DNA of 22,900 nucleotides from a virus: IMG/VR virus record IMGVR_UViG_3300042549_000360, positions 1-22,900 of that record; one strand, written 5' to 3'. A program made the translations under genes and the position numbers. The notes under the pieces were generated by a model that was not told where the DNA came from, did no database searches, and saw nothing but the letters and a program-made list of their open reading frames with translations. The number at the start of each line of letters is the position of its first letter. Positions within the stretch are counted from its first letter, which is position 1. Positions 966 to 14,559 of the stretch are shown piece after piece.

Positions 966-1049
966 GTCCCTAATCCGGGCTTATCCGGTGCATTGAACAG
1001 TCCCGGCTGACGACATACAGATCAATGCACTTAACTTGTATGTAAGGAC
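966..1049 (+). promoter_or_regulatory. Structured 5' leader RNA with interlocking helices
   Basis: Four complementary pairs can be read directly. A: CCGGG 975-979 with CCCGG 1002-1006. B: GTGCATTGA 988-996 with TCAATGCAC 1022-1030 (9 bp, perfect). C: ACATACA 1013-1019 with TGTATGT 1037-1043 (7 bp plus a G-U). D: GTCC 966-969 with GGAC 1046-1049. A and C are sequential hairpins whose loops contain the two halves of B, so B is a loop-loop pseudoknot or an alternative conformation. D would close a three-way junction and pair with part of the Shine-Dalgarno AAGGA (1044-1048) of the gene starting at 1055. A second CCGG (985-988) can replace the 5' strand of A. The linker CTGACGA (1007-1013) between A and C resembles a hammerhead core strand, but the other core elements are absent. 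A translational switch or a processed or ribozyme-like RNA is inferred, not shown. Confidence 0.55.
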
Positions 1050-10452: not shown

Positions 10453-12498
10453 ATGTCCAATCGCTACAAAGGCGCGGTCATTTCCGCAACGCCTCCCACT
10501 ACTACGGGTGGTGAAAGTGGAGTTGCGTCTGGCGCATGGACATTAGAACAACAGATGCAGTTGCAAGCGGCAGGGTTGTGGCCTGTGGCTCCTCCAGACC
10601 CTAGTTTGTTTATTGAGAACCTGTTCAGCACATACCTTTACACAGGTAATAACTCTACTCAGACCATCACCAATGGCATTGATTTGTCTACTAAGGGCGG
10701 ATTGGTTTGGGTGAAGAACAGAACAGGCGCTTACCACCATACCTTATGGGACACAGTGCGTGGGGTACAAAAGTACTTGTACACAAGTGCTACCAACGCA
10801 GAATCCACAGATGCTGGGTCGCTAACTGCGTTTAATTCAAACGGTTTCTCTCTAGGCAACAGTGACCAAAATTGGAACAACAGCGCATCGAGCTACGTCT
10901 CATGGACATTCCGAGAGCAACCAAAGTTCTTTGATGTTGTGACTTATACAGGGACTGGTGTTGCTAGAACAGTAGCGCACAACCTTGGAAGCGTTCCCGG
11001 TTGCATCATCGTCAAACGAACAAACGCTGTTGGCGAATGGCCGGTCTATCACCGAAGCCTTGGGAATACCAATAGGGTGTTTCTTGATTTAACAAACGCA
11101 ACTGGAGCCGCTTCACAGTTCTGGAACGACACAACGCCTACAGCAACTGAGTTTACGGTTGGCACGGGGGACTTGGTAAATCAAGTGGGGGACACCTACG
11201 TTGCATACATCTTCGCCCATGACGCAGGTGGTTTTGGCCTAACTGGTACAGACAATGTGATTTCGTGTGGGTCTTATACAGGTAATGGTTCTGCCGATGG
11301 GCCAACAGTTTCTCTTGGATACGAACCACAGTGGTTGCTGATTAAAAATGCTTCAGCGGCTGAATCGGGCGGTCTTGTTTGCAACTGGCGGATGTACGAC
11401 AATATGCGAGGATGGGCAACAGGTGGGGATGAGGCTAGGTTATTTCCCAACCTAACAAATGCTGAAAACTTTGCTAACGATGTAGATTTAACGTCAACAG
11501 GATTTAAACTTACTACCACTGCTGGCAATGTTAATGGCAACGGTGAAACGTTCATCTACATAGCCATTCGTAGAGGCCCAATGAAAGTGCCTACTGTGGG
11601 GACTAGTGTGTTTAGTCCTGTTGCGTACACTGGGGACGGCACAACTAGACTTTACTCAGCGGGTTTTCCAACTGACCTATCTATAAACATGGCGCGAAGT
11701 CTATCGTTGCGTTCACCTTGGTGGGCAGATAGACTTCGTGGGGGAACTGTTCAAGTGTTTTCTGATGGGGCAGGCGCTGAAGGCGGAGGTGGTGACTTTG
11801 CGTTTGATAATCAAACAAGCATATATGTTAGTACTGTTCGTATAGCCAGCGGACAAACATATATAGATTGGTGTTTCCGTAGAGCGCCCGGCTTTTTTGA
11901 TGAGGTTTGTTATACAGGGACAGGAGCTAACAGAACTGTGACGCACAACTTGACTGTTACACCTGAGTTGATGATTATTAAAGGGCGGTCTGATGCAACT
12001 GCATGGGAAGTTTATTGTTCTGCCCTTGCCAATACTGAATACCTTGTTTTAAACACAACTGCGGCTAAAGCCACGGGTGCAACTAGATGGAATAGCACAA
12101 CCCCAACATCTTCTGTGTTTAGCGTTGGTACAAGCACAACAACAAATAATAGTGCGGCAACCTATGTTGCTTGGCTCTTTGCAACCTGCCCCGGTGTTTC
12201 CAAAGTTGGCTCATACACAGGAACAGCCACCACACTACAAATTGACTGTGGCTTTACGGCAGGTAGCCGTTTCGTTCTCATTAAACGCACAGACTCTACA
12301 GGCGATTGGTATATGTGGGATTCAGCCCGTGGCATTGTTGCTGGCAACGACCCCTACCTGTTGCTAAATACTTCTGGTGCTGAAGTCACGGGTACAGATT
12401 ATGTTGACACATACAACGCAGGGTTTGAAATTAGCTCAACTGCGCCAGCCGCAATCAATGCCTCTGGTGGAACATACATCTTCTTAGCAATCGCTTAA
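10453..12498 (+). CDS. Large repeat-containing tail fibre protein, copy 1
   Basis: 681 residues. A short N-terminal leader with SGAWTLEQQMQLQAAGLWP (about 26-44) is followed by about six degenerate repeats of roughly 100 residues. Most contain a strand such as GGLVWVKNR, PGCIIVKRT, PQWLLIKNA, PELMIIKGR or SRFVLIKRT, then a Trp/Tyr-rich turn, and a closing Y[VI]xxxF or IYIAIRR segment (for example YVSWTFREQP, YVAYIFAHDAGG, YIFLAIA). I associate this layout with a phage receptor-binding/fibre family (DUF7483-like, from memory). The next gene (12508-14559) is a paralogue of nearly equal length with the same repeat order. The ATG has GGGGAG upstream (10441-10446). It is likely part of the distal tail appendage. 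Confidence 0.75.
   Translation: MSNRYKGAVISATPPTTTGGESGVASGAWTLEQQMQLQAAGLWPVAPPDPSLFIENLFSTYLYTGNNSTQTITNGIDLSTKGGLVWVKNRTGAYHHTLWDTVRGVQKYLYTSATNAESTDAGSLTAFNSNGFSLGNSDQNWNNSASSYVSWTFREQPKFFDVVTYTGTGVARTVAHNLGSVPGCIIVKRTNAVGEWPVYHRSLGNTNRVFLDLTNATGAASQFWNDTTPTATEFTVGTGDLVNQVGDTYVAYIFAHDAGGFGLTGTDNVISCGSYTGNGSADGPTVSLGYEPQWLLIKNASAAESGGLVCNWRMYDNMRGWATGGDEARLFPNLTNAENFANDVDLTSTGFKLTTTAGNVNGNGETFIYIAIRRGPMKVPTVGTSVFSPVAYTGDGTTRLYSAGFPTDLSINMARSLSLRSPWWADRLRGGTVQVFSDGAGAEGGGGDFAFDNQTSIYVSTVRIASGQTYIDWCFRRAPGFFDEVCYTGTGANRTVTHNLTVTPELMIIKGRSDATAWEVYCSALANTEYLVLNTTAAKATGATRWNSTTPTSSVFSVGTSTTTNNSAATYVAWLFATCPGVSKVGSYTGTATTLQIDCGFTAGSRFVLIKRTDSTGDWYMWDSARGIVAGNDPYLLLNTSGAEVTGTDYVDTYNAGFEISSTAPAAINASGGTYIFLAIA
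10894..10946 (+). repeat. Conserved segment shared by tandem fibre genes, copy 1
   Basis: This 53-nt stretch matches 12937-12989 at 52 of 53 positions by direct comparison, much higher than most of the two genes. It encodes the YVSWTFREQPKFFDVV region at the boundary of repeats 1 and 2. A second exact block of 27 nt is shared at 11593-11619 and 13639-13665. Confidence 0.85.
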
Positions 12499-12507
12499 GG
12501 ACAAAAC

Positions 12508-14559
12508 ATGAGTACAAAGTACACCGGCGGTTTCATCACAAAGTCTCCAGTAGCGCCAACAACAACGGCGGCTTCTGGTATCTGGACGCTTGACCAACAA
12601 CAGCAAGCCCAGAAAGCCGGTACTTGGCCCAGCCCACCTATATTCATTGAGGATTTGTTCTCAACGTATTTGTATGCGGGTAACAGTTCTACACAGACAA
12701 TCACCAATGGCATTGACTTGTCGGGTCAGGGTGGCTTAGTTTGGATTAAAAATCGCCAAACAAGTATTGGGGTTCCTATTGGTCACATTTTGACTGACAC
12801 TCAAAGAGGAGTTACAAAATTTCTTCGCTCACAAAGCACATCCGCTCAAGAAACATCGGCTTCAAGTATTACGGCTTTTAACTCAACAGGTTTTAGTTTT
12901 GGCTCTGATACTAACATTAACTATTCTGGCGACACTTACGTCTCATGGACATTCCGAGAGCAACCAAAGTTTTTTGATGTTGTGACTTACACTGGGACAG
13001 GTAGCATAAGAACTGTTGCTCACAATCTTGGTTCCACACCCGGCTGCATGATTATTAAGCAAACAAGCGCATCTGGTGAAAATTGGGGCGTTTATCACAG
13101 GTCTTTGGGTGCAACAAAACGGATGTATTTAAATACAACGGCCACTGAAGCTACTAATGTATCTTTTTGGAACGATACAGAACCCACAAGTACTGAATTT
13201 ACTGTAGGCGCGGAAGGTACTGTGAATTCTAATGGCGCGTCTTATGTGGCATACCTCTTTGCCCATGACGCAGGGGGCTTCCCTGTTTCTGGCGGTGGTT
13301 CAACCAATGGTATTTCGTGTGGGTCTTATGCTGGCACTGGGTCAAACGTAGTTGTTAATTTGGGGTATGAACCACAATGGGTAATGATTAAAAACATCAC
13401 AACAAGCGGTGGTGGTTATGATTGGTACATGGCTGACAATATGCGGGGCATTCCCATGTCGGGGGATACGCCCATGCTACAAGCCAACCTATCAGACGCA
13501 GAGAGTGGTGCTAGTCAAGGACACGCATTAGAACTTAACGCTACGGGATTTACAGTAACTTCTCCTTTTGGCGCTTTAAACAATTCCGGCAACACCTACA
13601 TCTACATAGCCATCCGCCGTGGCCCAATGAAGACCCCAACTGTGGGGACTAGTGTGTTTAGTCCTATTGCCGCGGTTTCTGGAGTGCAGACTACAAACTT
13701 TCCCGTTGATATGCAAATACTGTCTTTAAGAGATTCTGCATCTGCCTTGTTGAATCATCAAGTTATTGATAGATTGCGCGGTGTTAGTTCTACTTCAACT
13801 GCTCAAGGAAATTACTTAAACACAACAAGCACAGCCGCAGAAACTAGTGCAAGCCCTTTTTCGTCAATTCTTATGAGTAATGTTGGGTTTCAGGTTGGAA
13901 ATAATTATGCTGGTGGGAGTGGTGTTTTCCATTCTTTCCAACGAGCCCCATCGTTTATGGATGTGGTTTGCTATACAGGGACGGGGGTTGCAAGGACTGT
14001 GACGCATAACTTGGCAGCAGTGCCTGAGTTGATGATTGTGAAAAACAGAACCACCACACAATTTTGGGTTGTTTATTCTGCATTTACGGGAGCAACGCAA
14101 GCACTTCAATTGAATACCAATATTGCCGCGGCTACATCTGCTGGAAATTGGAACAACACAGCACCAACAAGTTCAGTATTTACTGTTGGAACATTTGGAC
14201 GAGTAAATGAATCTGGCTCAAATATGGTTGCTTATTTGTTTGCTACAGTTGCAGGCGTTTCTAAAGTAGGCTCATACACAGGCAACGGCTCTAGCCAAAC
14301 TATTGCTTGCGGTTTCACAGCAGGTAGCCGTTTTGTACTCATCAAACGCACAGACTCTACGGGTGATTGGTACGTCTGGGACAGCGCACGGGGTATTGTG
14401 GCTGGTAATGACCCACACTTAAGTTTAAACACTACGGCGGCTGAAGTTACAACAGACGATAGCGTAGACACTGATAACTCAGGGTTCATTGTTAATCAAG
14501 ATGCCGCAACAGACATCAACGTCACATCAGCAACCTACATCTTTCTCGCAATTGCTTAA
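12508..14559 (+). CDS. Large repeat-containing tail fibre protein, copy 2
   Basis: 683 residues, paralogous to the preceding gene along its whole length. The leader SGIWTLDQQQQAQKAGTWP and FSTYLYAGNSSTQTITNGID correspond to the copy 1 sequences, and the same six repeat units follow in the same order, ending in YIFLAIA. Identity is uneven: blocks such as YVSWTFREQPKFFDVVTYTG and KTPTVGTSVFSP are nearly unchanged at DNA level. The fourth repeat, around residues 390-475, is strongly diverged. It has AAGGA 7 nt upstream. Two fibres with the same base but different variable parts may give alternative or hetero-oligomeric receptor binding (inference). Confidence 0.75.
   Translation: MSTKYTGGFITKSPVAPTTTAASGIWTLDQQQQAQKAGTWPSPPIFIEDLFSTYLYAGNSSTQTITNGIDLSGQGGLVWIKNRQTSIGVPIGHILTDTQRGVTKFLRSQSTSAQETSASSITAFNSTGFSFGSDTNINYSGDTYVSWTFREQPKFFDVVTYTGTGSIRTVAHNLGSTPGCMIIKQTSASGENWGVYHRSLGATKRMYLNTTATEATNVSFWNDTEPTSTEFTVGAEGTVNSNGASYVAYLFAHDAGGFPVSGGGSTNGISCGSYAGTGSNVVVNLGYEPQWVMIKNITTSGGGYDWYMADNMRGIPMSGDTPMLQANLSDAESGASQGHALELNATGFTVTSPFGALNNSGNTYIYIAIRRGPMKTPTVGTSVFSPIAAVSGVQTTNFPVDMQILSLRDSASALLNHQVIDRLRGVSSTSTAQGNYLNTTSTAAETSASPFSSILMSNVGFQVGNNYAGGSGVFHSFQRAPSFMDVVCYTGTGVARTVTHNLAAVPELMIVKNRTTTQFWVVYSAFTGATQALQLNTNIAAATSAGNWNNTAPTSSVFTVGTFGRVNESGSNMVAYLFATVAGVSKVGSYTGNGSSQTIACGFTAGSRFVLIKRTDSTGDWYVWDSARGIVAGNDPHLSLNTTAAEVTTDDSVDTDNSGFIVNQDAATDINVTSATYIFLAIA
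12937..12989 (+). repeat. Conserved segment shared by tandem fibre genes, copy 2
   Basis: Partner of 10894-10946, with a single difference (C/T) about 36 bases in. The offset between matching blocks is 2,043 nt here and 2,046 nt for the later 27-nt block, so the pair is an in-register tandem gene duplication with small indels. Confidence 0.85.

Follow-up and report, generated by a model that had tools for sequence, protein, structure and literature searches.

Pseudoknots of the H-type are found at the ribosome-binding site in the leaders of S15 and of the S4 alpha operon, as well as in the SAM-II and preQ1 riboswitches. The motif Mu-gpT-DE, which was reportedly first described by Weinberg et al. 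in 2017, is typed in Rfam as 'Gene; sRNA', and a literature search of limited coverage found no functional study of it. Its Rfam accession is RF03012 (PMC7657543). As regards phage mRNAs, the translational operator of T4 gene 32 carries a pseudoknot at its 5' end (PMC535899). The RNA that is the subject of the present analysis lies in a 22.9-kb phage record in IMG/VR (IMGVR_UViG_3300042549_000360), positions 1 to 22,900 of which constitute the window, i.e. the whole stretch of DNA that was analysed. As judged from sequence comparison, this RNA is most likely an unrecognised, larger version of the known orphan Mu-gpT-DE and a translational control leader.

The window begins within a major capsid gene (1-906, on the forward strand like the leader elements and the downstream gene described below; its 5' end lies beyond the window), the product of which matches the phrog_371 major head protein (E 8e-21) and the Pfam families Phage_capsid_4 and Mu-like_gpT, and it was the last of these matches that pointed to the orphan motif Mu-gpT-DE. 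The non-coding gap between the end of the capsid gene at 906 and the next start codon at 1055 had been described as the seat of the leader, and it does hold it, but it also contains, ahead of the leader, an intrinsic terminator (926-950; 10-pair stem, 5-nt loop and T-rich tail), which is also present in homologous spacers, and then a -10 box, TATATT (960-965), whose spacing to the first paired strand of the leader, strand a, is conserved across leaders. A -10-like hexamer begins 15 nt 5' of strand a in 120 of 186 leaders, and a hexamer match of at least 5/6 is present in 153 of these 186 versus 49 in shuffles, while no sigma-70 consensus pair passes a promoter scan in the window itself. The leader begins about 10 nt after the -10 box, with the transcript start probably at about 971-974, and the fixed distance between hexamer and strand a suggests that the leader RNA probably forms the 5' end of its own transcript. 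The capsid gene is often separated from the leader by an inserted gene that resembles a GIY-YIG or HNH homing endonuclease (loci L443, L134, L146, L121, L141, L006 and L016).

The gene downstream of the leader (1055-1657) encodes a protein of 200 aa for which neither PHROG nor Pfam provides a match. In an alignment of 30 relatives its N-terminus, MAxTTFSGPVxSxNGF, is conserved and its C-terminal part is exchangeable; across this gene and its homologues the first 16 codons are kept and the remainder is swapped for seemingly unrelated domains. The product thus appears to be a head protein of modular build whose N-terminal arm is conserved, and this modularity, together with its place after the capsid gene, suggests that it is probably a head decoration or fibre protein. 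The label 'decoration' rests on gene position and modularity because the AlphaFold model of the protein is too poor for a fold search (mean pLDDT 52). A collection of isolated phages contained no match to the leader RNA or to the downstream protein, and the genome matches obtained in GTDB are contigs binned into MAGs (Nitrosomonadales, Armatimonadetes and a 'beta proteobacterium'), which are too unreliable for naming a host. Elsewhere in the window, at 10453-14559, two adjacent and similar long ORFs of 681 and 683 aa look like a tandem-duplicated tail or adhesin-like gene.

Three complements had been recognised in the preliminary description, namely CCGGG (975-979) with CCCGG (1002-1006), GTGCATTGA (988-996) with TCAATGCAC (1022-1030), and ACATACA (1013-1019) with TGTATGT (1037-1043), and all of them are present in the window at these positions. 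The inventory was incomplete, as two 3-bp stems had been missed: c (998-1000/1007-1009), with 99.5% of cells paired, and f (1035-1037/1044-1046), with 91.9%. The three earlier helices, trimmed or extended, and these two new stems make up the five helices a, b, c, d and f, the strands of which follow one another in the window RNA in the order a, b, c, a', c', d, b', f, d', f'. The plan is that of two tandem modules, each composed of a strand, a linker and a 3-bp hairpin whose 6-nt loop captures the strand, and the two module linkers, b and b', pair with each other. In the first module, strand a (975-979) pairs with a' (1002-1006) within the loop (1001-1006) of hairpin c (998-1009), a hairpin that occurs in the variants CAG/CTG, CTG/CAG, CGG/CCG and CTACGT/ACGTAG. 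Strand b (987-996) forms 10 bp with b' (1022-1031), the first of these pairs being G-U in the window, and is separated from hairpin c by an unpaired A (997) that is invariant in 67 of 67 aligned leaders and likewise in the Mu-gpT-DE class. In the second module, strand d (1013-1018) pairs with d' (1038-1043), which takes up the entire loop of hairpin f (1035-1046), with CTT (1035-1037) and AAG (1044-1046) as the two sides of its stem and CTT/AAG, CTC/GAG, GTG/CAC and GCG/CGC as its covariants. Two conserved and unpaired junctions flank strand d, ACG (1010-1012; ACG in 160 and ACT in 15 of 187 parsed leaders) and AGA (1019-1021; AGA in 166 and CGA in 8 of 187, its G and A being invariant in the alignment of 67 leaders). 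The geometry is fixed in the 187 leaders, with a b-c junction of mostly 1 nt, 3 nt between c' and d, 3 nt between d and b', and 6 nt in both loops.

Helices a, b, c, d and f use separate bases and can coexist. Of the two possibilities raised before, a kissing fold or mutually exclusive conformations, coexisting helices are therefore sufficient, and a real alternative pairing is limited to strand a, whose positions 975-978 can also pair with strand e (CCGG, 985-988). In the main clade this a:e pairing is retained with covariation (CCAGG..CCTGG, CCAA..TTGG, CCGA..TCGG), and it is missing from most of a distant class of leaders; the hairpin might act as a switch or form as an intermediate during transcription. 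Only a few of the unpaired residues are conserved (A, AC and GA), which does not point to a known binder.

Relatives were gathered as 160 IMG/VR loci via the downstream and capsid proteins, 62 of them with both genes and an intact spacer, and further leaders were obtained from a scan with the core pattern, counts from which are lower bounds. Covariation was evaluated in an alignment of 67 diverse leaders, aligned by sequence only. In a first test, comprising the three helices of the preliminary description and one new 3-bp helix, 22 of 24 pairs changed on both sides; for the five helices with adjusted ends, 25 of 27 pairs do so across the 67 leaders, including 4 of 5 pairs in a, all 10 in b (95.2% of cells paired), 3 of 3 in c and 6 of 6 in d (93.5% of cells paired). 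Altogether 92.3% of cells are paired, compared to 25-47% when partners are slid by 1-3 columns and 80% after shuffling, and 231 cells are changed on both sides versus 55 in shuffled and 23-38 in slid controls. The compensatory changes that had been proposed as a check were thus found in 988-996/1022-1030 and in 1013-1018/1038-1043. The latter range is what remains of the proposed 7-bp helix, whose outermost pair, A1019-T1037, is not conserved and is unpaired in 45 of 67 leaders; T1037 pairs with A1044. In the distant class, of which L132 is an example, most paired positions differ from those of the window and every helix is kept (CTAGG/CCTAG for a, CTG/CAG for c, TAGTAG/CTACTA for d and GTG/CAC for f in L132-like leaders). 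Among 234 distinct leaders the number of pairing types amounts to 36 for a, 139 for b, 24 for d and 12 for f, counts that are anchored by the parser described below and hence not independent of the model. One leader per record is present in 22 of 24 long phage records.

The arrangement is also improbable by chance. None of 20,000 mononucleotide shuffles of 966-1049 reproduced the 5+9+7 arrangement, and any perfect 9-bp complement occurred in 125 of 20,000. A parser that encodes the five-helix plan without sequence preferences fits 189 of 204 distinct leaders, and under this five-helix grammar the window scores 66.3 versus a best score of 50.1 among 300 dinucleotide shuffles. Nested minimum free energy folding of the leader gave no signal (z -0.25); such folding is blind to the leader because every helix crosses another, and a check based on folding only would have discarded it. 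Rfam searches of the window at gathering and permissive thresholds returned nothing credible, and the Rfam 15 riboswitch and ribozyme families gave no gathering-score match in the window or in 13 divergent loci. The leader is, in other words, a strongly conserved RNA that is missed by both nested folding and Rfam searches.

The Shine-Dalgarno sequence AAGGA (1044-1048) has its first three bases in the 3' side of stem f. It had been proposed that a 4-bp helix, GTCC (966-969) with GGAC (1046-1049), sequesters this site, and the complement does exist in the window, but it is not conserved (37.0% of cells paired versus 36.3% in shuffles), and GTCC falls in the stretch from the -10 box to the probable start of transcription. 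The broader proposal that the fold masks the ribosome-binding site is borne out by another element, stem f, which lies beside the d helix and pairs the AAG of AAGGA, that is, about half of the Shine-Dalgarno sequence. In 154 of 187 leaders AAGGA or GAGGA starts exactly at the 3' side of f, and the start codon usually follows 8-9 nt after this stem. Stem f consists of 3 bp and is unstable by itself, so that masking requires the kissing helix formed by d as well. In the subclass with GTG/CAC, the Shine-Dalgarno sequence is located 0-2 nt after f, outside the stem, and the exact mode of masking would accordingly vary across leaders. A different pairing is seen in the divergent leaders L085, L095, L112, L115 and L148, in which strand d, CCTCA, pairs with the Shine-Dalgarno sequence itself, TGAGG (L085 and L148 read by eye).

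The preliminary description recognised no named RNA family, which agrees with the Rfam results, yet the leader proves to be a positional and structural relative of Mu-gpT-DE. The RF03012 model finds nothing in the window, whichever of the thresholds is applied, and none of 75 records of window kin scores above its gathering cut-off of 49 bits, whereas 10 of 10 tested loci fetched with the RF03012 core, which served as positive controls, score 67-76 bits. The best RF03012 score on one related leader, 9.2 bits against the same cut-off, falls exactly on the leader, and in this alignment the RF03012 consensus CUGACAG..CUGACA..GACAG is ordered as b-A-c-c'-AC-d-GA-b'. Helix b and hairpin c thus occur with the junctions of RF03012 (CUG-A-CAG...CUG-ACA...GA-CAG), the unpaired A, AC and GA being present in both RNAs. 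What the two share is the locus, after a Mu gpT-like capsid gene (Pfam Mu-like_gpT) and before a MAxTTFSGPV gene, as well as the strand order b-A-c-loop-c'-ACx-d-xGA-b', the invariant junction residues and a d pairing located 3' of b'. At RF03012 loci the capsids are mostly 62-82% identical to that of the window, and the next gene has the MAxTTFSGPV N-terminus. Two elements of the window RNA are absent from Mu-gpT-DE, namely hairpin f and strand a, the latter paired with the loop of c; helix b comprises 10 bp compared to about 4 in Mu-gpT-DE, c has 3 bp compared to up to 8, and d' precedes the Shine-Dalgarno sequence in the window, whereas d pairs with the start codon in Mu-gpT-DE. A model built from the window type, R1, misses RF03012 leaders, and neither an unbroken series of intermediates nor a model finding both types was obtained. 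Homology of the two types, which have no mutual model match, is argued from position, gene and core.

Frequencies of the two types were drawn only from two capsid scans, because the loci of the pattern scan are selected by sequence. The scan around the window's own capsid yielded 58 leaders of the window type and none of Mu-gpT-DE, and the second, unselected scan yielded 60 of Mu-gpT-DE and 7 of the window type at the locus; in the two unselected scans, 125 of 137 loci parse as one of the two types. When all loci with a capsid end and a next gene are considered, a partly pattern-selected set, 508 of 527 parse as either type. On a tree of 202 capsids the leader type changes 6 times, at least 4 of these changes being forced by well-supported branches, and because the types swap on this tree they may represent replacements rather than steps of one series. 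Two capsid relatives, L638 and L607, have a leader behind the capsid gene that conforms to neither of the types (GTAATAATGCTCGGTATATATC..GCAGGCATATGGAG) and is possibly a third architecture at the same locus.

Leaders of the Mu-gpT-DE type engage the Shine-Dalgarno region itself through strand b, which reads CCTG or CTTG and pairs with CAGG in CAGGAG or with CAAG in CAAGGAG. The partner of their strand d, AGCCA or ACCCA, spans the start codon and codon 2 and reads U-GGC-U or U-GGG-U. In 61 sequences 95.1% of cells are paired, compared to 20-42% in slid controls. Codon 2 agrees with d at 159 of 160 loci, with Ala (GCN) facing GCC in 136 and Gly (GGT) facing CCC or ACC in 23. The exchange between Ala and Gly requires 7 changes on the best tree, of which only 2 lie on well-supported branches, and this covariation, although seen at many loci, reflects a modest number of independent events. 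A pairing of d with the start codon that covaries with codon 2 argues that Mu-gpT-DE is a leader rather than a free sRNA.

From these comparative data, the reading we favour, and hold to be probable, is that the window RNA forms the 5' end of its transcript and controls, in cis, the translation of the gene at 1055, and that it is a divergent and more elaborate relative of Mu-gpT-DE. The five covarying helices fold the stretch that extends from just behind the promoter to the Shine-Dalgarno sequence into one compact pseudoknotted body, and they uphold the loop pairing of the preliminary description. In the window type, stem f pairs the first half of the Shine-Dalgarno sequence while strand d holds the loop of this stem, and the folded RNA would deny the 30S subunit access to this sequence; in the Mu-gpT-DE type, access to both the Shine-Dalgarno sequence and the AUG would be denied. 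Translation of the decoration-like protein would thereby be held down, or timed apart from that of the capsid protein, whose gene would be transcribed separately, upstream of the terminator. The fold might be opened by a host factor, by a ligand or by a phage protein, for example the capsid protein, or it might unfold spontaneously and so set a fixed rate. Regulation that involves the C-terminal domain of the downstream protein, whether as autoregulation or through a regulator recognising this domain, was considered and judged unlikely, since in the alignment of 30 relatives the domain is exchanged under the same RNA. A more far-reaching version of this proposal, which we put forward only tentatively, regards the leader as an undescribed fold of two 'strand plus kissing hairpin' modules with paired linkers and pseudo-two-fold character, forming with Mu-gpT-DE a superfamily of interchangeable leaders that switch translation of decoration genes and possibly sense the capsid protein. 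If this were true, capsid-protein sensing by the leader would couple decoration to capsid supply.

Other functions have to be weighed against translational control. Only a few nt separate the fold from the probable transcription start of what is probably a highly expressed structural gene, and it has no known protein or ligand partner. These features would suit a 5'-end stabiliser, one that shields the message for an abundant structural protein against 5'-dependent decay and abuts the Shine-Dalgarno sequence only as the leader is short. We find this unlikely, as a stabiliser needs neither the Shine-Dalgarno sequence inside the 3' stem, as is seen in most leaders, nor a start-codon pairing that covaries with codon 2 in the Mu-gpT-DE type. 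The two pairings of strand a, with energies of -5.1 and -8.2 kcal/mol, invite comparison with a ligand riboswitch, in which a small molecule would toggle this strand between e (local hairpin) and a' (pseudoknot), and both the conservation of the a:e hairpin in the main clade and the compact pseudoknotted fold adjoining the Shine-Dalgarno sequence would be in keeping with it; however, the loss of the e pairing from most of the distant class, the absence of strand a from the Mu-gpT-DE type, the very few conserved unpaired residues and the finding of only phage structural genes downstream render a riboswitch quite improbable. An RNA acting on RNA polymerase in processive antitermination at the start of a late operon, as HK022 put or EAR elements do, would suit a leader that occurs once per genome at the 5' end of a transcript probably running into the tail genes, but would require neither a fixed distance to the Shine-Dalgarno sequence nor start-codon pairing, and with a literature search that gave no support it is given very little credence. 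Least probable of all is a free small RNA or a self-cleaving ribozyme, which the Rfam label and the compact pseudoknotted shape might suggest, since in the window no terminator separates the RNA from the gene, the gene's Shine-Dalgarno sequence and start codon belong to the folds, the flanks of the fold lack the conserved residues that a cleavage site requires, and no ribozyme family in Rfam matches. Readings as hammerhead, HDV-like, pistol or twister were discarded on their strand order, which differs, and no Rfam model matches.

Among the systems mentioned at the outset, the S15, S4 alpha, SAM-II and preQ1 RNAs differ from the window leader in topology, which consists here of tandem kissing modules, and in the gene concerned, and none of them gave a credible Rfam match. 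The T4 gene 32 operator is closer in that a phage mRNA pseudoknot upstream of the ribosome-binding site is used for translational control, and a GIY-YIG homing endonuclease gene (segG) adjoins the gene 32 leader in some phages. The gene 32 pseudoknot, of about 28 nt, is followed by a less structured stretch before the Shine-Dalgarno sequence and is bound by gp32, whereas the window leader includes the Shine-Dalgarno sequence itself in the fold. As for Mu-gpT-DE, an orphan filed as sRNA would gain a specific function that can be put to the test, that of a translational leader burying the Shine-Dalgarno sequence and, in one type, the start codon, and the same role would extend to a much larger set of unregistered relatives, of which there are at least 120 for each of three subtypes. 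At this locus two RNA architectures have been exchanged for one another with no change of position, gene or apparent task, which makes it an unusually clean natural experiment on the evolution of RNA folds.
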